NCBI GenBank assembly: GCA_007644065.1
Contig: VJWN01000030.1
Span: 306,425 to 370,424, forward strand
Length of the DNA stretch: 64,000 nucleotides
Origin: Margaritispora aquatica
Taxonomy: Eukaryota; Ascomycota; Leotiomycetes; Helotiales; Discinellaceae
Direction: 5' to 3'
Shown here: piece after piece, positions 9,493 to 38,010 of the stretch
Layout of the letters: each line of letters starts with the position of its first letter
Position numbering within the stretch: position 1 is the stretch's first letter
Translations under genes and position numbers: made by a program
The notes under the pieces: generated by a model
Database searches by the model: none
What the model saw: the letters and a program-made list of their open reading frames with translations, nothing else
What the model was told of the DNA's origin: nothing

Positions 9493-10450
9493 TTAGCACC
9501 CAACTGCAGAGACGACGACATTGATTCTACCTTCGTCAAAATTGTTGTGGGTGCCTACGTCAGTGAACTCTTGTCCACATGTATAGCGACTATAGTCGCC
9601 GTTGTGTCCACAGTTATTCACAACGTCTTCCGCCAAATAGGCAACCCAGCCACAATCGATGTTTTTACCCCACCAGTCCTAGAGACGCCATTAGTTACCA
9701 ACAAGAGGCATAGTACCCATTTCTCAACTTACCTCATTGCATAGGATGAGACCGCTGCATGCACCCGTCCAACCATCATATGTAGTCGCAACTTGGATAC
9801 AACTGTTTCCGCCGACTCCACACCACCCATCGACATCCTAACAGGCTATCAACTTTGACACTTTATTTGACCTATACCACACGAGAAGGATGTGTACTGA
9901 CTCGGAGATAGTTAGTGTTACTATAAACAGCATCTCGGCTAGTTCTGCTAAACCACTGGCCAGGTACCGGACAGCAAAAGCGACCAGACTAAATTCCCTC
10001 AGTAACAACACTGCAGGGCAGCAGTGAAGTATTTAACTGACCACATATGCATCCCCATCATGGAGCTGGCGCCTCTCAAGTCCATCATCGCGGGCATTCT
10101 TAGTATGGTTTGCGTTCTTGTGGAACTGTTTGGGAACATAGTCGGGATTCAATCTTTGAGCTTCAGCAATAACGCTCTGACGATGAGTTAGCAAGCGTTC
10201 GAGTATAAAACTAAGAGGGCTAACGTACTTGAATGGTGCCGTTCTTTTCAATGTAGTGACCTCCAACTTTGCCTTTGAAGGTCATAGTACCATTAACCTT
10301 CCATACCTTGGGCTTAACGTCGACCACATGACCTGGAATGCTGGCTGCACATACCTGCTAGATGTTAGAGACTTTCAATTCCACTTCAAAGTGACATACT
10401 ATTGAAGCAGCAAGCAGGAAAATGGAGCTGGGCATGGTGATCAGATGCAT
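9493..10450 (-). CDS. Secreted cysteine-rich protein, paralog B of a tandem pair
   Basis: Six exons on the minus strand: 10400-10450, 10229-10354, 10042-10176, 9902-9988, 9733-9837 and 9493-9678. Every junction is phase 0 with GT-AG ends, and the introns are 45-64 nt. The product is 229 aa. Exon 1 gives a signal peptide (MPSSIFLLAASI). Motifs in order: HYIEKNGTIQ, a short basic segment ending LERRQ that could be a Kex2-type processing site, FCCPVPGQWF, DGWCGVGGNSC, DGWTGACSG, C-x10-C around the GKNIDCGWVAYLAEDVVNNC helix, YTCGQEF, and a C-terminal VVVSAVGC ending in cysteine. Paralog A (7251-8275) shares motif order and most junctions; B has one extra intron between the CCPVPG exon and the next. 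Function unknown; the cysteine content fits a disulfide-bonded extracellular protein. Confidence 0.75.
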
Positions 10451-10952: not shown

Positions 10953-11776
10953 TCACAGCACAAGAGCACCGCAGGCCCCAATAATGTCTGGAATATCATC
11001 CGCAGTGTTACTCACTGCTCCAAAACGTATGTTCCCCTCTACCATTTTCGTTAGTTTCAAACTCAAGTATGAATTACAGATTAGCTTACTCTCATCAATT
11101 GCCCAGAATCCGCCCACCTGCCACCTATTACCACTAGGATCCACTTCCCTCGCCCATATGTTCTCTTGAGTACCCAGCTTCCGCATTGCAATTTGTGTCC
11201 ATGGATTCAATAAGTGATATGTCGTGCTAACTCCCAATCCCCAACTTGCATAAACCTCGCGCTCCTCATCCACAATCACTTTGATGGCCCACGCACCACC
11301 CAACTGAGAGACCCATTTGTCTGTGGCTGCTTTCGAGCTATGCGACACAGCTATGAAGTTGCATCGAGTGTATTTATTTGCTAACCGCCGTAGCTCAAGG
11401 AAAGTCTTCTCCGCGACTGGAAAAGGTCAGCTGGTGCGAGTATCTGGATGTCGCGGGGAAGTTTACATGGACATCCGCAATGCCTTAGGAATACCACAAT
11501 GGCGGGTCTCCCATCTCCAACAGGTAGGCGCAACTTTATAGACTGTGGTGCGCGTGCACCGACGACAGGTGCAGCGGCGACCTCAACTGGAGGGGGCGGT
11601 GGTGTCTGCCATGAGATCAAGGCTTTGGGTACTGTGAGGTTTGCGAATGGGTTCGCGAAGGGTGATGGGGCATTGGGGTCTTTTGTCGTGTTCGTGTCGA
11701 AGTTGGGGAGGGCGAGCGCATTAGATGGGATGCCCGCCTTCCGCAGAGCTATTTTTGTTGTGAGTTTTGATAACAT
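10953..11776 (-). CDS. Peroxiredoxin-like 2 / AhpC-TSA-like thioredoxin-fold protein
   Basis: Three exons: 11467-11776, 11090-11416 and 10953-11038. The introns are 11417-11466 and 11039-11089 (the second has a CTAAC branch site). The product is 240 aa. The central RPAIVVFLRHCGCPF segment is the thioredoxin-fold beta strand followed by the C-x-C-P active-site region seen in fungal AhpC/TSA-like (PRXL2-type) proteins. It is followed by FLELRRLANKY, FIAVSHSS and, near the C-terminus, GGFWAIDEKGNIRF and SNTADDIPD. The second intron was placed because it joins WAIDE to GNIRF and restores the family strand. The N-terminal 90 residues are Pro/Ala-rich and not conserved. Likely an oxidoreductase of unknown substrate; no targeting signal is evident. 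Confidence 0.85.
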
Positions 11777-16613: not shown

Positions 16614-16620
16614 AAAAAAA
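16614..16620 (-). terminator. Pol III terminator of the tRNA-Lys gene
   Basis: Seven consecutive T on the minus strand, about 20 nt past the tRNA 3' end. A second run of seven T follows at 16603-16609. The longest T run inside the tRNA gene, including both introns, is three, so Pol III would not be expected to stop early. Confidence 0.75.
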
Positions 16621-16639: not shown

Positions 16640-16791
16640 AGCCCGAGGTGGGGCTCGAACTGAAAGTTATGTTAGAATTTTTTCTCTCGCTTAGCGGAAG
16701 AGATGAGACTTACCCCACGACCTTGAGGTTCCATATGTGCTTGTTCACACACCATAAGAGCCACACGCTCTACCGATTGAGCTACCCGGGC
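16640..16791 (-). tRNA. tRNA-Lys (anticodon CUU) with a canonical intron and a second, spliceosomal-type intron in the T arm
   Basis: Read on the minus strand: acceptor GCCCGGG (16791-16785) pairs with CTCGGGC (16647-16641). D arm GCTC-AATCGGTA-GAGC; the A box TAGCTCAATCGG fits. Anticodon loop CTCTTA|A with anticodon CTT at 16758-16756. A 25-nt intron (16730-16754) sits at the canonical 37/38 site and contains AAG, able to pair with the anticodon. The variable loop is AGGTC. The T stem GTGGG (16718-16714) is then separated from the T loop TTCGAGC (16659-16653) and CCCAC by 54 nt (16660-16713). These 54 nt begin GTAAGT, contain TTCTAACA and end TTTCAG. Removing both inserts gives exactly 73 nt including the discriminator, with perfect T and acceptor stems. 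The anticodon stem TGTGG/CCTCA has one T-T mismatch. The discriminator base is T. Confidence 0.85.
16660..16713 (-). other. 54-nt spliceosomal-like intron inside tRNA-Lys
   Basis: The insertion lies between tRNA positions 53 and 54. The donor is GTAAGT, the branch-like motif TTCTAACA ends 11 nt before the acceptor, and the acceptor is TTTCAG. Its length matches protein-gene introns in this window (44-109 nt, many 45-55). A short internal hairpin is possible around CGCTAAGCG. The last bases, AG, followed by TTCGAGCC, rebuild a B-box-like AGTTCGAGCC at the 3' junction. Confidence 0.75.
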
Positions 16792-17145: not shown

Positions 17146-17892
17146 TCACGGCCTGAAATCCTCCAACTTCCTGACCTGCCTGCCCTCAATAAAATTCTCC
17201 TCCCCAAGCCATCCCTCCAACGTGCTCTTCACCCCCAGCCCGTCTTCATCAACCCATTCCTCATCTAGACAACTAAACCAAGCCGTGTCCCTCCTGCGTC
17301 CCTTCACAACCAAATGTTTTCTAAACACGCCCTCAAACGTGAATCCCAGCCTCAGCGCGGCGCGCTTACTTGGCTCATTTCGCTCATTCGCCTTCCACTC
17401 CACCCTTTGATACCCGCCTGTCTCAAACGCCCATTTCATGAGCAGATACACCGTCTCCGTGGCCGCGGTGGTACGCTGTAGCGTTGGCGCGAAGAGTACG
17501 GAGCCGATTTCGATGCTCAGGTTCGTGGAAGAGATGTTCATGTATGTGATAACCGAGACTGCTGTCTGCTCTCCCGGAGTCTTGTCCGTGGTCTGGTTGG
17601 ATAGATGAACGGGATTAGAGGTCATGATGGCGAAGGGGAAGAAGATCTTGCTTTCCATTAGGTCGACCATGGCTTTTGTGAACGACTCGGGTCCGTCGTA
17701 CGGGCCGGTGGGGATGTATCGCCATATGTGCGCTTGCTCTGGCTTGCCTAGGTTGGTGTAGAGGTCTGGGATATGCGCGTGGGTGAGCGGCGTGAGGGTT
17801 ACATGTTCCCCTGTGAGAATGGTGGTTTGGGTATTTGGAACCAAGGCTGGTGGCGCGGTGACGAGGTCACCTTCTGGCTCCATGGGAGACAT
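17146..17892 (-). CDS. GNAT-family N-acetyltransferase (RimJ/RimL-like)
   Basis: A 248-aa single-exon protein. The N-terminal half holds LTPLTHAHIPDLYTNLG, the first strand and helix of an Acetyltransf_3-type GNAT domain, and PFAIMTS. Motif A is degenerate: IEIGSVLFAPTLQRTTAATE at about residues 127-146, where the acetyl-CoA-binding loop would sit. The last part is a classic RimJ-like ending: VEWKANERNEPSKRAALRLG, then FTFEGVFRKHLVVKGRRRDT and WFSCLDEEW. Family members acetylate N-terminal amines or small molecules with acetyl-CoA; the substrate here cannot be told. Probably cytosolic. Confidence 0.9.
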   Translation of the reverse strand: MSPMEPEGDLVTAPPALVPNTQTTILTGEHVTLTPLTHAHIPDLYTNLGKPEQAHIWRYIPTGPYDGPESFTKAMVDLMESKIFFPFAIMTSNPVHLSNQTTDKTPGEQTAVSVITYMNISSTNLSIEIGSVLFAPTLQRTTAATETVYLLMKWAFETGGYQRVEWKANERNEPSKRAALRLGFTFEGVFRKHLVVKGRRRDTAWFSCLDEEWVDEDGLGVKSTLEGWLGEENFIEGRQVRKLEDFRP

Positions 17893-18421: not shown

Positions 18422-19805
18422 CTAAACGAATCGCGGTGGGTATCCTTGGGTATCATTCCTTCGCTCCTTAACCTTTGGCACAGCAGAGCCTTGGTCTTTT
18501 TCCCAGTCAACATAGTCTTTCTGTATCCTATCAATCTCTGCCTTCAGATGTCGCAGCTGTGTGTTATAATCTTCCAGAATCTAGAGTCTTGTCAGTAATA
18601 TTCTCAATGAAAACTTCGTAAAACTTACCTTCTTTGCTTGCCGAGTCATGGCTTCATCCAACACATCAGGTGTATCTGAAGAGCTCATTTCAATTTCTCT
18701 CTTCAACAGCTCTGCATGCTTCTGTACCTGCACCATCCGAGTCCAAATCTCTTCGCCTCTAGCACCCAATCCAGGATCATTAATACTCTTTTCAAGTGTC
18801 ATGAGCTTCGTTTTTAAATCTTCTTCATCGCCTCCCAGCGCGTATCCCCTGTTCCGCAAAACCTGGACTTTTGTTGCCAAGGCAAGACATCTTTGCTTCA
18901 GTACAAGGTGCTTCCGCCTAGCATTCATGGCTCGAATACTTGTCTGCGTCTCATGATTCTGCATCATCTGCGACAGGGCATCGTTGATTTCGTGGAGCCT
19001 TGCGTTAAATCGAGATAGATTCTGTTGTTGCAGCGTGATTCGTTCTCCCATTTCACGGAAACCTGTGCACAACACAGGAATGAATCCCGGACCGGGCTTC
19101 TTGGAAAGTGCTTCCTCCCACTCCGGAACACTCTCATTTGGGCCTGGTCGATAATAAGGTACCATGCTCTCTTCAACCCTATTGTAGAAGTAATATTTGA
19201 ACACACAACTGGAGCTGCCTGAATCCCATTTCTCTAACACGGTTGCAATCTGCTCCGGAATGCTCTTCTCACCTATGATCCTGTTAGTCAAAGAATTGGG
19301 TTTGAATTCATGGATACGAACGATTATACCCACTTTGCGGCTGCCACATAGCCGTACTTTGTCCAAGAACCGGAAATTGCTGCTGCTGCGCAGACTGTCC
19401 GAATGCATTTTGGTTTACAGCTCCGCCAAACAAGCTCGAGCTTTGCTGTTGCTGGTTTTGTTGTTGATTTTGTCCAAGCCCGCCAAAAAGACCGCCAGTC
19501 TGTTGTGGTTTGTTATTATTTTGAAACCCAGAAGCAGCTGCTGGCTGCTGAGCGTTCTGACCCAGGTTGCCAAATAGAGTTGAGGTTTGCTGTGGCTGTT
19601 GATTGTTTTGCCCAAGGTTTCCAAAGAGTCCTCCTGTCTGTTGTGGTTGAGTTTGTGTGCTTGCGCCAAATAACCCGCCAGTCTGCTGTGGTTGAGTACT
19701 TTGTCCAAAGAGACCCCCAGACGACTGTTGCTGCTGATTATTCTGTCCCATACCACCAAACAGAGAGCCGCTGGGCTTGTTCTGGTTTAAACTTGCTCCG
19801 AACAT
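18422..19805 (-). CDS. NUP57: FG-nucleoporin of the Nup57/Nup54 family
   Basis: Three exons: 19330-19805, 18629-19280 and 18422-18580. The introns are 19281-19329 and 18581-18628. The product is 428 aa. Residues 1-155 are a GLFG/FG repeat region rich in Gln and Asn (repeated GGLFG separated by QQ tracts), the disordered domain that forms the permeability barrier. After MWQPQSG the conserved part begins: KSIPEQIATVLEKWD, then YYFYNRV, then WEEALSKKPGPGFIPVLCTGF, which is the Nup54-type alpha/beta region. Long coiled-coil helices follow to residue 376, with a short coiled tail in exon 3. The protein should join Nsp1/Nup62 and Nup49/Nup58 in the central channel trimer. It is divergently arranged with the complex I gene at 20268, with 462 bp between. 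Confidence 0.93.
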
Positions 19806-21053: not shown

Positions 21054-21817
21054 AGATATGGAAATGTACGCTTAGTTGAGGGTTGGCGCGAATGTTTGTA
21101 CATAGGGCAAGGCAATAAAATTCAAAAACAAACGGAAGCCGGGGTCATTGTCCAAGCTACCAATATTTGTGATCAGTGATGTGACGAACGTTTTGTCGAG
21201 CTCCTATTTCTTAGAAGCACTACTAAAGATAATATCTTGTTTAGTAGGAAAATACGCAGTTAGTGCTGGCATGCATTAGAGCCTGCCCACGGAGTATTGA
21301 TATCTCCGAAGAAGTCCTTACACGAGTAGGTAAAGTTCGATCATACAATCTTGGACCTGGGACCTGGACAGCTTTATCACAAAAGGGGGGGTTTTTTTTT
21401 GAAGAAAATCTACATTAAAAGGGAATAGCCTACAGAAGAAAGAGTTTGCGAATGACTTGCATATCAGGAGCCTTTGCGGGAAAAAACTCAAGGCTTATCG
21501 GCGTTAAGGGACCCACCAATACTTTGTTAGCCCTGGAACCTGCTTTACTTGATGGTATGTGGGCATTCAACCTAATTTCCATGGACCTAAGACAAACAAT
21601 GACACTGATTATGATTACCGATACTCATTGGCCCTTTGATTTAGCTCTAGGCAATTATGTCATGGCATGGTGTTACGACATGGAATGTCTCGTTACCCGA
21701 GAAGTCACGCCCTACACATCTTTATACTCGCTCAACCTCATTTTCTTCACACTTATCATCTCTCATTATCCCTAGAGCTAAAATTTCTCCAAGGTCTCCA
21801 GAGACTCTCAGCTCATC
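21054..21817. other. Intergenic, 0.76 kb
   Basis: Contains a G7/T9 homopolymer junction near 21386-21401. No gene supported. Confidence 0.6.
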
Positions 21818-24700: not shown

Positions 24701-25144
24701 TTTAATGTAACAGTATGATGAATATATGAATGGGAGGAAGGTACGTAAACGTGAATTGTACATTATGAAAATCACATGGAAAGAAAATTGACAAAACAAA
24801 ATTTGATCGACCTGACAAGACGTTTTGCCTTGTAAGTAAGGAAGCATGTGAGGGACTTGAACATCAACTTGAAAATGCGTCAGTATTGGTGCTTTGGCGT
24901 CAAAGTAGTAATAGATGTCAATACCAGATTAAGGGGACTATCAGGAGCTGGAATGATAATAGGGATGATATTGAATAGAGGATCGAAGCGAAGGTTGGAA
25001 AACGGAGACATAGAGCCGTATCACATGATCTCATCAATATGCGGCCGCATTTGGATCCACATCATCCAAGAGCTGTCAGCCTCGTCCATAAAGTCGGGTC
25101 TCTCATGAAGCTATGCGCATACTCACTTGCTAGAGAGCTACACA
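24701..25144. other. Intergenic, 0.44 kb
   Basis: The promoter of the Spt8 gene. Short frames only. Confidence 0.5.
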
Positions 25145-27191
25145 ATGGCGGACTTCATTCTGGACGACGATGATCGCGGGTCAAATGGGAGCTCCGACAA
25201 TGATCAGGATGAACTAATGGAAGATGCTGAAGATATGGAACTCGACGTTGGAGCGGACGCCGATGGTGATGGTGAGGGGGACGATGATGAGGAAGATAAT
25301 GGCGACGAGGACCAAGATGGAGAGGAAGAGGGGGATTCGCCCGAGCAGCCAATTTCACAAATTCGCAGACCAAGTTTGAACACAGAAACAAATAGTTCAG
25401 AGGACACCCCAACAGTTGCACCGATCAATAGCGCAGGACCAACATCACATCCACATCCTTCGCTTATGCGCACATCTGCCTCTCCACGGCAAGGTTCTGC
25501 GCCTTTGAAGTCTCCCAAGATTCGATACGAAGTCCGCCCCGAAGCACTTACAGCATCGCTGTATGATATCGTGCCTACTATGGCAGCTCCGCAAAGCACC
25601 TCGGTCAATACCATTGCAGCTACACCAGACATGAGGTACTGGTTCACTGGAGGGTCGGATTGCTACATTCGAAAGTATGATGGAGTAGCTACTGTCAATG
25701 GGAAAACCCTTTTGACTGTAGCTCAAAGGCATCCGTTTGTTGATAGTGTTACCAAATGTGGAGTGCTGATGAGTTACTGGGATAATGAGGAGCCAATTAC
25801 CAAAGCTGGAGAAGAATCCTCTCTCTCACCAGTCTATTCCATGGCAGTACAAAGTCAAGCACTTTGGTTACTTTCAGGCTTGGAATCTGGCTGTATCAAT
25901 TTGTACTCGGTACGTCACGATGAGGGCAAGAGAATAGCATATCTGAAGGTGGGGGGTCACAAGTCTGCTGTCTCTGTCCTTACTTTGGCACAAGACGAAA
26001 AGTCGGTCTTGTCTGGTAGTTGGGACAAAAACGTCATTGACTGGGACTTGCATACAGGACAAGTCAAAAGAACCTTCGAGGGAAGTGGTGGTCAAATTTC
26101 CGCAATTGAGGTGCGGCCAGCATCAAGTTTACCAGTGCCTGAAGAGTCTGGTGATCCAGTACCAACGACTGAGACATTCTCAAGTAACAATGGGGCTAAA
26201 CCACTAGCAAATGGAAGCTTGACTAATGGGGTCAATGGCACGTCTAATGGCTTGGGTGATGCCGATGGGACTGAGGATGCTCCGGGCTCCCCTGCAAACT
26301 CACTCTTTGGTGATGATGAAGACAACAATTCATTATTTGGAGAGACTGCAGGCGAAGGGGCACCATCAGGTGGTGTGTTTGGTGATGACGACGACGAGTT
26401 CTCTCGCGCTATTGGGTCTGGAATTGATAACTCCGATCCTATTGACTCTCAAGGTGATTTGTCAATGGCAGATGCACCTACAGATGTGATACTGGCCCCT
26501 GAGGTCCAGCCGCCTGAAGATGCCGTCAAATATGATTTAAAAGAGACAAATGGGCATGCTGTCGAAATCCAAGAGCCATCTCCCGTTAATATCGTCCCCG
26601 AAACCCAGGATGCAATAGCTACCTCAGAATCCACATTCCTTGCTGCTTCAATAGATGGAACTTTGAGGATATGGGATAGGAGGCAGCCGAATCCTGTGGC
26701 ACGTATCCCAACACGGACGGGAGTACCTCCTTGGTGCATGGCTGCCTGTTGGTCACCGGATGGTAACTATTTTTATGCCGGTCGCAGAAATGGCACTGTG
26801 GAAGAATTCAGCTTGCATAAGGGCCTTAAGACCTCGGAACGAACATTCAAATTTCCTCAAGGAAGTGGTGCAGTGAGCGCAGTTCGGGCGATGCCGAATG
26901 GTCGCCATTTGATTTGGTAAGTCGCCCTTTCCAATGGAGTATGAATGATTGCTAACATGATTTAGCGCCTCTCATGACATTTTGCGATTGTATGATTTGA
27001 AAGAACCAGCAGCTTTCAAGCACTCTACAGTACCGTTCTTGATCGTCCCTGGACCACCAAGAGCGGGTGTCATCTCAGCACTCCATATTGATCCTACTTG
27101 TAAATACATGCTATCAGCGGCTGGTAACCGTGGTTGGGAAGGCAGCACGACCGAAGTGCTAATTGGATATGAGATTGGAACAATACCTTAA
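25145..27191 (+). CDS. SPT8: Spt8, WD40 subunit of the SAGA complex
   Basis: Two exons: 25145-26916 and 26966-27191, with a 49-nt intron. The product is 665 aa. I prefer the ATG at 25145 (MADFILDDDD) to the in-frame one at 25127 because its context is better and the acidic start is the family pattern. Residues 1-70 are extremely acidic (runs of D and E). The conserved core begins with KIRYEVRPEALTASLYDIVP, then WD40 repeats: YWFTGGSDCYIRKYD, VSVLTLAQDEKSVLSGSWDK, a long low-complexity insert, FLAASIDGTLRIWDRRQ, and the last repeats into exon 2. Spt8 links SAGA to TATA-binding protein in the nucleus. The insert between repeats is rich in Gly, Asp, Asn and SLFG-type motifs. Confidence 0.93.
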
Positions 27192-28893: not shown

Positions 28894-30942
28894 TTAGACA
28901 ATCGTGAAAGTATACAAATCCGTTTCCTCCTCCAACTTCTCGAAGTAATCATCCGTAATAACAGCTCTCTCCGCTGCAGTCTGTCGTTCCCAAAGCGCTA
29001 CTATATGCTTGTCATATACAGGTATAGGTGAAAGTAGAAACATGCCAATCCTGCGATATTCCCCACGATTCCCAGTAGCCTGCAAGACGATTCCGTAGTA
29101 AGAAGACGGATTGGCCAAACACACCACAGCAAACAACCTTCCATCTGACTCCTCCACCGGCAAATCTCGCCTGTAATGGAAGAACATATCTCTAACCCTC
29201 ACCATGAAATCATCCTGCCACTCCACCACTTCAGCAGCAAATAACCTCGCTACGACTGTCAACCTTCCCGAAACCGCAGGCGAATATTCATCATCATCTA
29301 ACGTCTCAATCTCAATCCCCTCAACCTTCACACACTCCCTATACACATGATCCTGAACCACACACCCCACCCCCCCTAACCTACTTGCCCAAGACCAACT
29401 CGGCGGTTTCTTCTCCGCCAAAACACCCACCTCCGGCGAGAGACTAAATGGACCTTGGTACGCCATCCCCCACACCAACTGCCTCACCAAACCGTCCTCC
29501 CACAATCTAGCCACATACCTCCCACGCATAAACGAGCGAAACAAGCGCGCCACACCCGCAATCGCAACGAGGAGGTCGCTCTCATACGTCAGTGAGCAGC
29601 TCATAAACAGCTCCACGATGTGTGACCAGGCCGTGACACGCTCGGCAAGCGTTTTATGTTTGAGGTTCAGACCTAGTAAGTCGAGGTCCTGCTTGCGCGG
29701 CGTAAGAATCAGGTCTTCGGATGGACATCCAGAGGGGTATAGCTCGCTGGCGCAAAATTGCCGACATTCGAAGAAGACCTGGCTTGCGCCAAAGTGCAGC
29801 ACGCGTGGGGAGAGGAGTCGCTCTTGCATTACCCATCCGCGTGAGAGGAGCACAGAGAGCGTGACTTCGCGGTACCAGAGCAATTGGTCACGAATGAGGT
29901 ATGCTTCCACTTTAGGCACTTCGATCGTGTCGCTTCTTCTTTTGTTTCGCTTGAAATGACGGGCTAAGCGAGCCATTCTGCTCGTTTTGGGCGTCACGAC
30001 ACCGCTTAAGATTCTAGGTTGAACTGCGTGCACTGGACGCGATACGAAGCAGCCCCCTGTGCTACTAGAAGAATTTGTGGCTGCGATATTACAGTACGAG
30101 AAGGAGTAAACGCCTGCCATGCGCAGGGATTCTTTGAGCCAGTCTTCCTTGGAATCTTGGATAATGCAGAGGGAGTCGATCCAGATGTACGAGACTTTGA
30201 AGGTACGAGTGACGTGGATTGCGTCTCTGAAAGTCTTTGGGAGTTCGGTTAAAGAGATTCCTGTTTGGAGAGATTGTATGTTCTTGGATGTCATTGTTAG
30301 GAGTGGTGTTTTGCCCCAACAGTGGCTTAGTGTTGTATATTTCGTGTCTGGGGGGAGTGATTCTGAATAGCACAACTTGATTGTGTCGTTTCTAATTGGA
30401 CTGATTTGCAGCAGTCTGGTCGGTAAACACCTTCGCATTGATGTAGAAGCCACATTGCAATGCGTGTGTGTCTTGATGCAATTCCTCACCCATCCTGCTG
30501 CCATCTCTAGGCTCTCAGCCGACCCAGAGTCACAAGATGAATACTCCAGCTGTGCGTCAAGAAGCATTTTTTCTGGAGCTAAACAAATATAAGCAATGCC
30601 ATCTGATAAACTCCTGAATATCTTCTCACCTTCAAGGTTGCTTAAATCGTATAGTCTAAACTCTTTAGCTATGGTCGACCCCCTAACCGCGAAGTACACT
30701 TCCATACAGTTCGGAGATGTGTAATATTTCATCGTGACAGTATCTAAAGGCCCTGGGAATTGCAAAGCCTCGGTTCTCTCTGTTTCAGAGAATGCTTGCC
30801 AGAGAAAAGTACATAGTTGACAGCCATACTCGCCTGTGAGTTTGATGGCAGCAAGTTTGTTTTCGTAGCGATGGTGAGTAGGCACCAAAGCGGCAATCTC
30901 GTGGGAGAAGAATCTTTGGCAAAATTCGCAAAAGTTGCTCAT
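28894..30942 (-). CDS. HET-domain (heterokaryon incompatibility) protein
   Basis: A 682-aa single-exon protein. An N-terminal Cys-rich segment (CEFCQRFF at residue 5, GCQLCTFLW at about 40) is common ahead of fungal HET domains. The HET domain starts at about residue 202 with YTTLSHCWGK and continues with LPKTFRDAIHVTR, YIWIDSLCIIQDSKEDW, and YCNIAATNSSSSTGGCF; these are the three conserved HET blocks. The C-terminal half has GWVMQERLLSPRVLHFG and the W-SW motif (PPSWSWASRLGGV). HET proteins take part in allorecognition and regulated cell death when hyphae of different genotypes fuse; most copies have no tested partner. Length is normal and no break is visible. Confidence 0.95.
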   Translation of the reverse strand: MSNFCEFCQRFFSHEIAALVPTHHRYENKLAAIKLTGEYGCQLCTFLWQAFSETERTEALQFPGPLDTVTMKYYTSPNCMEVYFAVRGSTIAKEFRLYDLSNLEGEKIFRSLSDGIAYICLAPEKMLLDAQLEYSSCDSGSAESLEMAAGWVRNCIKTHTHCNVASTSMRRCLPTRLLQISPIRNDTIKLCYSESLPPDTKYTTLSHCWGKTPLLTMTSKNIQSLQTGISLTELPKTFRDAIHVTRTFKVSYIWIDSLCIIQDSKEDWLKESLRMAGVYSFSYCNIAATNSSSSTGGCFVSRPVHAVQPRILSGVVTPKTSRMARLARHFKRNKRRSDTIEVPKVEAYLIRDQLLWYREVTLSVLLSRGWVMQERLLSPRVLHFGASQVFFECRQFCASELYPSGCPSEDLILTPRKQDLDLLGLNLKHKTLAERVTAWSHIVELFMSCSLTYESDLLVAIAGVARLFRSFMRGRYVARLWEDGLVRQLVWGMAYQGPFSLSPEVGVLAEKKPPSWSWASRLGGVGCVVQDHVYRECVKVEGIEIETLDDDEYSPAVSGRLTVVARLFAAEVVEWQDDFMVRVRDMFFHYRRDLPVEESDGRLFAVVCLANPSSYYGIVLQATGNRGEYRRIGMFLLSPIPVYDKHIVALWERQTAAERAVITDDYFEKLEEETDLYTFTIV

Positions 30943-31415
30943 CGTGACAAGCTTGGAGATGCAATTATTTGACGGTAGGGATTGAGGTAAGTAGAAAATT
31001 GCAATTGAGGGTGGTGATATAGAACATTGTTATGATAAGGCTCGCTTGTTACTGTGGAAGATGGTTTAGAATTTTAGGTTGCTATATCGGAGAAGCTGAG
31101 GAGGAATATATGGTTGGCGTGGTTAACAGAACTCGAAACATTAAGCGCTGATAAAGCGTGGTGCTAATTTCAACTAATACTGTTCGTCTTACTGTATCTC
31201 TATATAGAATTAGCGCCCTGATAATAGTATTGTAGCACCAACTTACTGGAAAGAACACAACACGATATATCCAGTACTTTATTCGCAGTATCACCACACA
31301 ATCCGAACAAGAAGCTAGGCCAAGCTTGCGTAAAATTGTAGTCCATTTCTTAAACAGTATTATTTCGCACGTAATATACCAAAATCAAAACTCCTTCCTC
31401 CCACAGAAGCAACAT
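30943..31415. other. Intergenic, 0.47 kb
   Basis: The promoter of the HET gene and the 3' flank of the small membrane protein. Nothing else seen. Confidence 0.5.
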
Positions 31416-34600: not shown

Positions 34601-35856
34601 CCTTCCGATCGTCTTGTCTTCCAGGAGAGTTTGTGTGTTGGAATCGTAGAAATTGAGCAGCGAAGCGAGAAGCTTAACAGGCGAGCTTGTGACAAGAATT
34701 GCTTAAATAAGGTTGTACGCATGCCCCAGAAAGTGTCGAGATAGGTGGTGATATTTCCATAGTAGATGGCTTGCATAGGTCCGAAAATTTTGCACAAACT
34801 TAAGATGTCCCAAGTGCTGATTTACAGCCATGCTGATAAGCTACGTTGTTGCTTGATGCTTTGTTTATGAGGAAAATCGTTGCTAGTCTGAAGGTGTAGA
34901 CGAGTAATGCTAATGAACATGGTTTTGCTGCTAGCGTCATGGCGCTTGGTGCAGGGCTGTTATCAAAGGGCTTCGGAGCTAGGCTGTTGTTTTCGTCTTC
35001 TGACCCGAACACTAGATTATCATATATATGTGGACACATGTACTCTTCATTATCACTTCATCATCACGAGATTTCGTGGCGATTCTCCTAGCTGTAGGAT
35101 TGCAGCGCGCTACTTCCGAAAGTAAAATGTCGCTGTACTCTCACTTTGCCGAACAAAGATTTGGAGGAATGAAGTGCATATGTTGAAATAGAATGCTACT
35201 TCGTACATGGCCAAAATAACGTGTAAAGGTAGGGTTAAGCAGGGGTATAGCCATAGCTAGATTGCTTTACAGCAACCTACGACTTCACAGTATTAAGAGT
35301 GCTGCCTTTATGTTTCCCAGGTGAGCACAGAGTAGTGGCTATGAAAAGTCGAGGGATTTTGAAGCAATTTGCATAAAGCAGCATTGCGGAGACATTAGTG
35401 ACATACCCTACCCTTTTACACGTTATTTTGGCTATGTAGGAAGGGGACATAAGATTCAGCCTCACATTGGGAGCTAACGCCGAGAAATGTAATTTAGGTA
35501 AATATGGGGGCGCCGCGCAAAAATAGAAATCGTACCAGAATTCAGCCCCGTACGGCGATTCATGCCCAAATTCATATTGTGCTCCGTACTCAACAAACCC
35601 GTTACAGTGATTAGATTGGCACGTTGGTCGGTCTTGTCCCCAGATCGTAGTCGAGATAGCGGTCGACCGTGGCACGTATAAGTGGAGAGGTGCAACCCAA
35701 AGACCGCCTGGCTGGCAACTACATTTATGAACCAGCTGCATATTTGACGAGTACCCTTTCAAGCCCTAATTCTCAAGTCAAGCACTGTGCACTAATGTTC
35801 TCAATTTGACCCGCCCAATTACCAACCGTGGTATTGAACTCTTCCCACACTCCACC
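31698..35856. other. Gene-poor region, 4.2 kb
   Basis: No intact gene. Minus-strand frames at 32646-32897 and 32338-32583 have protein-like composition (Glu/Leu/Arg-rich helices) but do not join into a supported model. A plus-strand frame at 34095-34424 is similar. The region holds one MITE-like inverted repeat (35204-35438) and may consist of decayed gene or transposon material. Confidence 0.5.
35204..35438. mobile_element. MITE-like element with inverted terminal repeats
   Basis: About 32 bp at 35204-35235 (TACATGGCCAAAATAACG start) is repeated in inverted orientation at about 35404-35438 (ending TTTTGGCTATGTA) with few mismatches. The arms enclose about 170 bp without an ORF. Ends read TA...TA, as in Tc1/mariner-type MITEs. 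Only one copy is in the window, so mobility is inference. It lies 0.42 kb before the start codon of the triterpene cyclase. Confidence 0.55.
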
Positions 35857-38010
35857 ATGGATGAAGACACTCATAATCGAACTACTCTGCCGCAATTTTC
35901 ATTGCCATCACTCTGCTCACTCGCCTCACTCGCTTCCCAAGCCACTGAACTCGCTATCTCCTACTCTTGGGATCTTCTCAGAGAAAACAACCACTGGAAC
36001 GGCGAACTTCGCTCTAACGCAAGTATAACTGCCGAACAAATCTTCTTGTACCAGTCCCTGGGTTACAATCCCATTCCAGACGCATCCTCCTATCGCCATT
36101 ACTTCCTCTCGCAACAACAAGATGACGGCTCCTGGTCTATTGCCCCCGGTTCAGATTATCCTGGTTGTGTCTCCACGACCACAGAAGTTTATCTCGCTCT
36201 TAAAATTATGGGAGTTTCGACGAGTGACCTAGCGATGCTGAAAGCGAAGGAATTCGTAAGATCACAGGGAGGCGTAGCAAAGGTCCGGATATTCACCCGG
36301 TTGTTCCTCGCGCAGTTTGGATTATGGCCTTGGGATTCCATTCCACAATTACCAGTCTGGTTTGTGCTTCTTCCCGCTCACGCATTTGTGAGTATATATC
36401 GACTTGCATCGTGGGCACGATCGACAATAATACCATTGTTGATTATCCGGCATCATGAGAAAGTCTATCCACTGCCCTCTGGCGAGGGGCGATGTTTGAG
36501 GACGGAGAGGGAGAGTGGATTTTTGGATGAATTGTGGTTAGACCCGAGGAGGAAGAATGTGGCATATGCGCCGTCGTTATTGAGGCCTTGGGAGAGCGAT
36601 GTTTGGTCGTTGTTCTTTAGTGGTATTGATATGTGTTTGGCGTGGACAGAAAAGAGCCTTGTTTTGGCTCCAGTGAGGAAATATGCGAGGAGGAAATGCG
36701 TGGAGTGGATCTTGGGGCATCAAGAGAAAGAAGGGGATTGGGCTGGTATTATACCGCCTATGCATGCAGGTGTTCAGGCGCTGTTGCTGGAGGGTTATAA
36801 ATTCGAGGATGAACGCATACAGGATGCTATCAAAGCCATAGAGCGCTTTACGTGGGAGGATGAAAGGGGTGGAAAGAGGTTGCAAAGCTGCGTTAGTCCG
36901 GTTTGGGATACAGTTTTGATGACGAGGGCGTTGTGTGATGCACACGCCGGCCTAGGTGGACAGATGGTGTTGAGAATGGATGAGAGACTGAGCAATATTA
37001 TCCACTGGATCAAATCTCATCAGCTCCTAGGTCCGGAAGGTGATTGGCGAATCTACGTAGATAAAGCTGTGCTGCCAGGTGGTTTCAGCTTCGAGTACCA
37101 TAATACTTGGTATCCAGACGTTGACGACACTGCTGCCGCCATCCTGGCGCTCATCTCCCAAAACCATGCTGAGGTCGATAGCCATACAGTTACGACGGCT
37201 ACGGCGTGGATCTGCGGCCTACAGAATGCGGACGGTGGGTGGGCGGCGTTTGATCTCGGGAATGATAGGCTATGGTTGAATAAGATCCCCTTTTCCGATA
37301 TGGACGCACTGTGTGATCCTAGCAGTGCAGATGTGACCGGGAGGGTACTGGAGGCGTTTGGATTGATGATGCAGACCTTAGCTGATGAGAATGGATACGT
37401 CAACGCGTTTACTAGAGGAATGATCGAGGGGGCGTGTGTGAAGGGTATTGCGTATTTGGTGGGACAACAGGAAGGAACAGGTTCGTGGTATGGCCGTTGG
37501 GGCTCGAATTATTTGTATGGGACTTCGAACGTGCTTTGCGGATTGAAGTATTTCGTTGATGAGAATATGGATGTAAAGCATGCGATGGAGCGAGGCGTGA
37601 AATGGCTCAAGAGAGTGCAGAATGCTGATGGTGGGTGGGGTGAAGACTTACAATCATATAGGGACAAGTCTAGAGCTGGACGAGGAGTCTCGACACCTTC
37701 GCAAACGGCGTGGGCGCTGATGGGTTTATTGTCTGCCATTAAAAATGATCCTCGCGATGATGTTGCGATTGAGAGAGGTATTAAACACTTGGTTGACACA
37801 CAGACAGATGTGCGTGAAGATGAGAAGGGAGCCAGTTGGCCGGAGAAGCGGTATACTGGTACGGGATTTCCGAATTTCTTCTACATTGGATATACACTTT
37901 ATCGTCACTATTTTCCCACAATGGCCCTGGGGAGGTATTTGCGGGCTGTAAGAGCGGTAGAGGAACGAGTAGGTCTCGCTAAAGATCAACGAATATCAAT
38001 AAAATCGTGA
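35857..38010 (+). CDS. Squalene-hopene-cyclase-type triterpene cyclase
   Basis: A 717-aa intronless protein. The start is the ATG at 35857 (CCACCATGG context); the longer frame begins with TTG only. The catalytic protonation motif is DVDD at residues 421-424 (WYPDVDDTAAA). The DxDD form indicates protonation of the squalene double bond directly, as in squalene-hopene cyclases, not oxidosqualene cyclases (which have DCTAE). QW-type repeats are present: QQQDDGSW near residue 87, QNADGGWAAFD, QEGTGSWYGRWG, QNADGGWGED, and the C-terminal GTGFPNFFYIGYTLYRHYFP. All are standard for this fold. Expected reaction: cyclisation of squalene to hopanoid-type pentacyclic triterpenes at a membrane. SHC genes are mainly bacterial and occur patchily in fungi; the absence of introns fits acquisition by transfer. 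Neighbours show no further terpene-pathway genes. Confidence 0.93.
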   Translation: MDEDTHNRTTLPQFSLPSLCSLASLASQATELAISYSWDLLRENNHWNGELRSNASITAEQIFLYQSLGYNPIPDASSYRHYFLSQQQDDGSWSIAPGSDYPGCVSTTTEVYLALKIMGVSTSDLAMLKAKEFVRSQGGVAKVRIFTRLFLAQFGLWPWDSIPQLPVWFVLLPAHAFVSIYRLASWARSTIIPLLIIRHHEKVYPLPSGEGRCLRTERESGFLDELWLDPRRKNVAYAPSLLRPWESDVWSLFFSGIDMCLAWTEKSLVLAPVRKYARRKCVEWILGHQEKEGDWAGIIPPMHAGVQALLLEGYKFEDERIQDAIKAIERFTWEDERGGKRLQSCVSPVWDTVLMTRALCDAHAGLGGQMVLRMDERLSNIIHWIKSHQLLGPEGDWRIYVDKAVLPGGFSFEYHNTWYPDVDDTAAAILALISQNHAEVDSHTVTTATAWICGLQNADGGWAAFDLGNDRLWLNKIPFSDMDALCDPSSADVTGRVLEAFGLMMQTLADENGYVNAFTRGMIEGACVKGIAYLVGQQEGTGSWYGRWGSNYLYGTSNVLCGLKYFVDENMDVKHAMERGVKWLKRVQNADGGWGEDLQSYRDKSRAGRGVSTPSQTAWALMGLLSAIKNDPRDDVAIERGIKHLVDTQTDVREDEKGASWPEKRYTGTGFPNFFYIGYTLYRHYFPTMALGRYLRAVRAVEERVGLAKDQRISIKS

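Follow-up and report, generated by a model that had tools for sequence, protein, structure and literature searches.

We have analysed a window of 64,000 nucleotides of the Margaritispora aquatica genome (contig C24, 306425-370424) and scanned the assembly to which it belongs (42.36 Mb, 49 contigs). A scan of the window with Rfam RF00005 located a tRNA at exactly 16640-16791 on the minus strand, with a score of 33 bits. The gene encodes tRNA-Lys(CUU) and is interrupted twice. Exon 1 (16755-16791) covers tRNA positions 1-37, including the anticodon CTT, and is followed by a canonical tRNA intron of 25 nt at 37/38 (16730-16754). Exon 2 (16714-16729) covers positions 38-53 and exon 3 (16640-16659) positions 54-73; between them, at 53/54, lies a 54-nt GT-AG intron of spliceosomal type (16660-16713; GTAAGT...TTCTAACATAACTTTCAG). 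This insert displays a 5' splice site GTAAGT (16708-16713), a branch-site core CTAAC (16671-16675) followed by 11 nt to the intron end, and a 3' splice site CAG (16660-16662), all on the minus strand like the gene itself. The initial annotation of this DNA had read the locus as a tRNA gene whose T arm contains an intron of spliceosomal type, in addition to an ordinary tRNA intron. This reading was strongly supported by ten further interrupted tRNA genes in the genome, and the 54-nt insert and the 25-nt intron were both confirmed with exact coordinates. The annotation had also put a branch element 11 nt from the insert's end, which held for the CTAAC core; the eight-letter element TTCTAACA that it had named is followed by 10 nt instead.

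The boundaries of the insert could be determined from the paralogues. Removal of both introns left the 73 nt that had been predicted, and four tRNA-Lys(CUU) genes that lack the insert (C46, C45, C2 and C1) have exons of identical sequence. Thus, the junction is fixed by the paralogues and was not chosen by us; it could shift by one G, and just one of the two placements gives GT-AG ends. Exon 3 pairs with T-stem positions 49-53 only once the insert has been removed. Likewise, ARAGORN found no tRNA in the native gene and returned a tRNA-Lys(CTT) with a 25-nt intron (38,25) after the insert had been taken out. A search of the genome for tRNA-Lys(CUU) copies carrying the insert, which the annotation had proposed, yielded six genes, all with the same three exons. 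Two of the six are interrupted: the window gene and a gene on C49, which has 54 nt at the same place, with the branch site in identical register and a diverged insert body. The other four have no counterpart of the insert. All five remaining genes also carry introns at 37/38, with sequences that differ from that of the window gene. Since four of the six genes are uninterrupted, the window copy could be dispensable. Intact genes elsewhere together with decay of this copy had been named as signs of a pseudogene; the intact genes exist, and decay of the window copy was not seen. By eye, all six tRNA-Lys(CUU) genes found have a T-T mismatch at 29/41 in the anticodon stem.

Inserts of the same type, with GT-AG ends and 48-61 nt long, were found in at least 11 tRNA genes at four sites (6/7, 30/31, 53/54 and 60/61). 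In addition to the two tRNA-Lys(CUU) genes, they comprise a tRNA-Arg(CCU) gene on C23, whose anticodon stem is split at 30/31 by 49 nt (GTTAGA...TACTAACAGTTAATAG) and which has a 14-nt intron at 37/38; two tRNA-Gln(UUG) genes, on C25 and C16, whose acceptor stem is interrupted at 6/7 by 51 and 48 nt, leaving a first exon of six bases, and which have a 38-nt canonical intron; five tRNA-Arg(ACG) genes (C47, C9, C46, C1 and C14) with 54-61 nt at 53/54; and a tRNA-Lys(UUU) gene on C34 with 50 nt at 60/61. A second kind of tRNA-Lys(UUU), on C48 (locus L035), is not interrupted. The eleven genes stand at separate loci, and assembly error was rejected as an explanation. Their number is a lower bound, the tRNA gene inventory being incomplete.

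The additional genes were located by reading around weak or long Rfam matches and DNA-search matches. The genome-wide RF00005 search scored 62 of 1722 first-look candidates, and the window's own gene was absent from its list; all six matches below the cut-off proved to be interrupted tRNAs. With its intron search switched on, ARAGORN modelled none of the eleven native genes correctly (nine were missed, the tRNA-Arg on C46 received a wrong intron and the gene on C23 was called tRNA-Ser). After removal of the inserts, it gave the correct isotype and anticodon for 11/11, with the 37/38 intron of the C49 gene left unmarked. A covariance model of tRNA with a T-arm insert scored the window gene and the C49 gene at 79 bits each, an uninterrupted tRNA-Lys at 45 bits and the tRNA-Arg(CCU) at 35 bits; having been built from artificial chimeras, it is circular for tRNA-Lys. 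Minimum-energy folding of four joined tRNAs gave a plain cloverleaf as the minimum for tRNA-Arg(CCU) alone, and folding energy was therefore not used as evidence. No genome match was obtained with a concatenated query of 17 human, yeast and Neurospora tRNAs for missing isoacceptors or with a fungal-type tRNA-Gly(GCC) query, and these empty results are uninformative. Exact-pattern scans for an interrupted tRNA-Arg(ACG) gene among stray fungal contigs of viral and genome contig collections gave 0 matches. Long introns also occur in a tRNA-Met(CAU) gene and in a tRNA with a TTGCA loop, probably tRNA-Cys (L039 and L040; the genes measure 145 and 154 nt); as judged by eye, these introns are at the canonical place and lack GT-AG ends.

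The inserts share the signals of U2-type introns. The 5' splice site, of the GTRNGT-like kind, begins with GTAAG in ten of the eleven, including all those of tRNA-Lys(CUU), tRNA-Arg(ACG), tRNA-Gln(UUG) and tRNA-Lys(UUU), and with GTTAG in one, the off-consensus GTTAGA of tRNA-Arg(CCU). A CTRAY branch site is present as CTAAC, 9-11 nt before the end, in 9/11 and as CTGAT in one; the C14 copy of tRNA-Arg(ACG) has CTAAA only. All eleven end in CAG or TAG. Their removal restores the host exactly, and the uninterrupted tRNA-Lys(CUU) and tRNA-Gln(CUG) genes display the joined sequence: the related tRNA-Gln(CUG) gene on C9 runs GGTTGATTAGTG unbroken, which confirmed the 6/7 junction of tRNA-Gln(UUG).

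The full signature, GT[AT]AG with CTRAY 8-12 nt before the end and YAG, occurred in 10/11 tRNA inserts and in 7 of 1,538,474 overlapping segments of 48-61 nt from both strands of the window's first 55 kb, the signature having been defined after the inserts had been seen. Two of the seven segments are the window tRNA insert itself and an mRNA intron in the SPT8 gene. The latter (49 nt, plus strand, 26917-26965, GTAAGT..GCTAACATGATTTAG) was placed by tblastn of three homologues and served for the comparison with protein-gene introns that the annotation had suggested. It has the same signals as the window tRNA insert (GTAAGT, CTAAC and TAG) and a similar size. The SPT8 protein (25109-26920) has a best match of 79% identity; the closest named proteins, from Hyaloscypha, Cudoniella and Mollisia, genera of the Helotiales (Leotiomycetes), are 74-76% identical to it. 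The five further signature segments (18581-18628, 11039-11089, 10177-10224, 9679-9732 and 21266-21321, all on the minus strand) may be mRNA introns; that at 18581-18628 lies at the edge of a Nup54 ORF. Runs of four or more T were found in 7 of 25 predicted mRNA introns vs 1 of 11 tRNA inserts, which is not significant (Fisher p = 0.39); the 25 were predicted from ORFs in 55.5 kb of the window and in fetched loci, with the SPT8 intron alone placed by homologues. A stricter ORF-based prediction gave 4 candidate mRNA introns.

Comparison of paralogues revealed that exons and splice signals have been held constant, in the manner expected of selection, within inserts that have diverged. In an ungapped comparison of the window and C49 tRNA-Lys(CUU) inserts, GTAAG, CTAACA and CAG were identical at 14/14 positions and the rest at 13/40 (Fisher p = 6e-6, for 14 positions chosen on sight of the alignment), where 27% identity is expected by chance. 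With the textbook set GTAAGT, CTAAC and CAG, the values were 13/14 vs 14/40 (p = 2e-4). The exons of these two genes are identical at 73/73 positions. Wherever neither tRNA function nor splicing is at stake, the two genes are close to chance divergence. Gene conversion could hold the exons alike; it would not readily do so for isolated splice signals within a randomised insert. The tRNA-Arg(ACG) genes followed the same pattern. Four of the five have identical 72-nt exons, with inserts that share from 21/54 to 38/57 aligned identities in pairwise comparisons (39-67% where aligned) and 60-nt flanks that share 14-23/60. The fifth (L076, C14:360435-360486 and downstream) has two exon changes in addition to its CTAAA branch site and lacks the full signature. 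This copy may be decaying, which would make it a useful natural control. All of this conservation was observed among paralogues of one genome.

For three isoacceptors, every gene found was interrupted. All five tRNA-Arg(ACG) genes found were read, and each carries an insert; a joined query retrieved these five genes, matching bases 1-52 and in no case running through the junction, so that no uninterrupted copy was found. Both tRNA-Gln(UUG) genes found are interrupted, as is the single tRNA-Arg(CCU) gene retrieved by both native and joined queries. In each case this means that none was found by searches that score the best candidates only, in an assembly whose gaps could hide copies. In sampled ORFs of the window, 81 of 4196 codons are CGT or CGC. 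Under standard wobble rules, CGC is read only by the tRNA with anticodon ACG (inosine). Hence, tRNA-Arg(ACG) is presumably indispensable, and the cell presumably must join it. The case of tRNA-Arg(CCU) is weaker, because yeast survives its loss. Given that no uninterrupted tRNA-Arg(ACG) or tRNA-Gln(UUG) gene was found, splicing is probably needed for translation in this fungus.

The interrupted genes resemble ordinary RNA polymerase III (Pol III) genes. In the window gene, the A box, recognised by its consensus, is TAGCTCAATCGG (16773-16784, minus strand), and the B box (consensus GGTTCGANNCC) is at 16651-16661 on the same strand. Its first two letters are the terminal AG of the intron; because this AG precedes TTCGAGCCC at 53/54, the B box reads AGTTCGAGCCC and G53 is kept. 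A terminator-like run of seven T (16614-16620, minus strand) lies 19 nt past the tRNA end, so that the window gene has an A box, a B box and a T-run terminator. All eleven interrupted genes have a run of 5-9 T that starts 8-36 nt past their end, and T5 occurs within none of the precursors. By eye, the insert at 60/61 in the tRNA-Lys(UUU) on C34 disrupts the B box at its end; in the tRNA-Gln(UUG) genes, the A box is one intron farther from the start than usual. From this promoter and terminator resemblance, we infer that the precursors would be Pol III transcripts. Three tRNA genes (L058, L065 and L069) have TTTT within the mature tRNA, in the anticodon loop, and downstream runs of five or longer; Pol III here thus presumably reads through four T. 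Among other small RNA genes, both U6 matches and the 5S rRNA matches (at least 44 listed, 43 above the cut-off, all 117-120 nt long and covering the full model) show no interruption, a control limited by the fact that a like search left the window's interrupted tRNA unlisted, so that interrupted U6 or 5S genes could be missed.

In our view, the inserts are very probably U2-type spliceosomal introns that would be removed to make tRNA. Pol III, directed by the internal A and B boxes, would transcribe the window tRNA-Lys gene as far as the T run that follows it. GUAAGU, CUAAC and CAG would be recognised by the nuclear spliceosome, which would join position 53 to 54 and restore the T arm. Only the spliced precursor could fold into a tRNA body fit for RNase P, RNase Z and the tRNA splicing endonuclease; as the last step, ordinary cutting and ligation would remove the 25-nt intron at 37/38. 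Spliceosomal removal should precede splicing at 37/38, because the T arm, the acceptor stem or the anticodon stem is broken until the insert leaves.

The same introns could instead be spliced from a Pol II precursor (a read-through transcript or a dedicated capped RNA), with the tRNA being excised afterwards. Capped Pol II RNA is the normal substrate of the spliceosome, and the window gene is preceded on its strand, at a distance of about 355 nt, by a GNAT-like ORF that ends at 17146, so that the 3' UTR of this ORF could reach towards the tRNA. We regard this origin as rather unlikely, since the A and B boxes look kept, by eye, in most of the eleven genes, the T runs are placed outside every precursor, and the U6 RNA of fission yeast is spliced from an mRNA-type intron as a Pol III RNA (PMC10484740). 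It is very improbable that the inserts merely mark pseudogenes, i.e., dispensable tRNA copies that are never spliced. Short insertions in the D or T arm of eukaryotic tRNA genes are generally supposed to be such marks (PMC4090602), and the four intact tRNA-Lys(CUU) genes and the decayed look of the C14 tRNA-Arg(ACG) copy would fit. Against this stand the unchanged exons of both interrupted tRNA-Lys(CUU) genes and of 4/5 tRNA-Arg(ACG) genes, in which splice signals are kept while insert bodies differ; for the class as a whole, the objection is answered by tRNA-Arg(ACG), tRNA-Gln(UUG) and tRNA-Arg(CCU), with no uninterrupted gene found.

Cleavage by the tRNA splicing endonuclease, as of the non-canonical introns of Cyanidioschyzon and nucleomorphs, appears extremely improbable to us. 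The two tRNA-Gln inserts reach 3 of 4 central pairs of a bulge-helix-bulge; the strict 4-bp central helix was formed by 0/11 inserts with a one-base slide allowed, which is weak evidence, with 6.6% of random segments passing. More telling is the presence of GTAAG, CTAAC and YAG, of which such a mechanism would have no need, and the inserts are at 6/7, 30/31, 53/54 and 60/61, not at 37/38. Rfam at gathering thresholds, run on the window, reported just the tRNA, and a group I or II self-splicing intron was rejected; 48-61 nt is too short for either. Concerning origin only, and not mechanism, the annotation had considered a recent insertion of mobile, introner-like introns. The common site 53/54 in tRNA-Lys(CUU) and tRNA-Arg(ACG), both with TTCGAGCCC downstream, is in line with such a spread, as are the tRNA-Arg(ACG) inserts of C46 and C1, still identical at 38/57 positions. 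This proposal lost ground and is quite improbable: queries with four inserts (window tRNA-Lys, tRNA-Arg(CCU), tRNA-Gln of C25 and tRNA-Lys(UUU)) matched tRNA paralogues only, and the tRNA-Lys(CUU) insert bodies are near random.

Among the open-access matches listed, no title or abstract opening gave a precedent for a tRNA gene with a spliceosomal intron. The nearest precedent is the mRNA-type intron of the Schizosaccharomyces pombe U6 gene, a Pol III gene from whose RNA the intron is spliced out (PMC10484740). Like the precursors presumed for the M. aquatica tRNAs, U6 RNA is a fungal Pol III transcript with a spliceosomal intron. It differs in being a component of the spliceosome, with an intron thought to derive from reverse splicing near the catalytic bases, whereas the M. 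aquatica hosts are tRNAs of several isoacceptors, interrupted at several positions, and the two U6 genes found here are uninterrupted. In PMC9602550 and PMC4090602, Cyanidioschyzon merolae is described with more than one intron per tRNA gene, in the D, anticodon or T arm, including 53/54, and nucleomorph tRNA genes with D- and T-arm introns. The introns of C. merolae and of the Guillardia theta nucleomorph (3-24 nt in the latter) are attributed to the splicing endonuclease, those of C. merolae to the bulge-helix-bulge system (PMC4090602, PMC3978253). The M. aquatica inserts differ from both by their 48-61 nt, their splice and branch sites and the lack of a strict bulge-helix-bulge. In C. merolae, the D- and T-arm introns are supposed to leave before the anticodon intron (PMC9602550); the order proposed here, insert before 37/38 intron, would be analogous. 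The canonical 37/38 intron occurs in the same tRNA-Lys(CUU), tRNA-Arg(CCU) and tRNA-Gln(UUG) genes as the inserts and differs from them in position, in enzyme and in having no GT-AG or branch-site requirement. The U2-type introns of M. aquatica protein genes, as in SPT8, are like the inserts, with an mRNA as host there and a tRNA here. The tRNAscan-SE 2.0 paper gives one intron as the limit for eukaryotic tRNA genes and, in the passages considered, seeks non-canonical introns in archaea (PMC8450103). In a review, non-canonical introns are supposed to be rare among eukaryotic tRNAs, with nucleomorphs and C. merolae named as cases (PMC4090602).

It seems likely, at a confidence somewhat below that for the introns themselves, that the spliceosome is an obligatory tRNA-processing enzyme in this fungus. 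All tRNA-Arg(ACG), tRNA-Gln(UUG) and tRNA-Arg(CCU) would pass through it, several of them going on to the endonuclease, and the decoding of CGU/CGC and CAA would hang on splicing. Such introns would have been gained repeatedly, at different tRNA sites, and may be common in related fungi, where they would be hidden because tRNA finders do not model them. tRNA splicing and mRNA splicing have been treated as separate worlds, and single nuclear tRNA genes here appear to need both in succession. If confirmed, this would mean that translation in M. aquatica depends on the spliceosome through tRNA supply, that the spliceosome routinely acts on Pol III RNA with exons down to 6 nt (plus leader), and that fungal tRNA catalogues may miss essential genes, which would be reported as absent or mis-assigned. 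It also makes testable how the spliceosome could recognise tiny exons with no cap and by what route non-coding RNA acquires introns.

Elsewhere in the window, we have observed a HET-domain (heterokaryon incompatibility) gene at 28894-31029 on the minus strand and, at 35770-38010 on the plus strand, a single long open frame that makes up a squalene-hopene cyclase-like gene. Between 56001 and 64000, the GC content drops from about 46% to 20-27% at the contig end; this AT-rich island is of a type that repeat-induced point mutation leaves behind. Contig C38 is probably the mitochondrial genome. Its tRNA matches recur about 33.7 kb apart (for example, 5297/38998 and 6194/39895), which suggests either a circular molecule, with an assembly that runs on beyond the starting point, or a large duplication.
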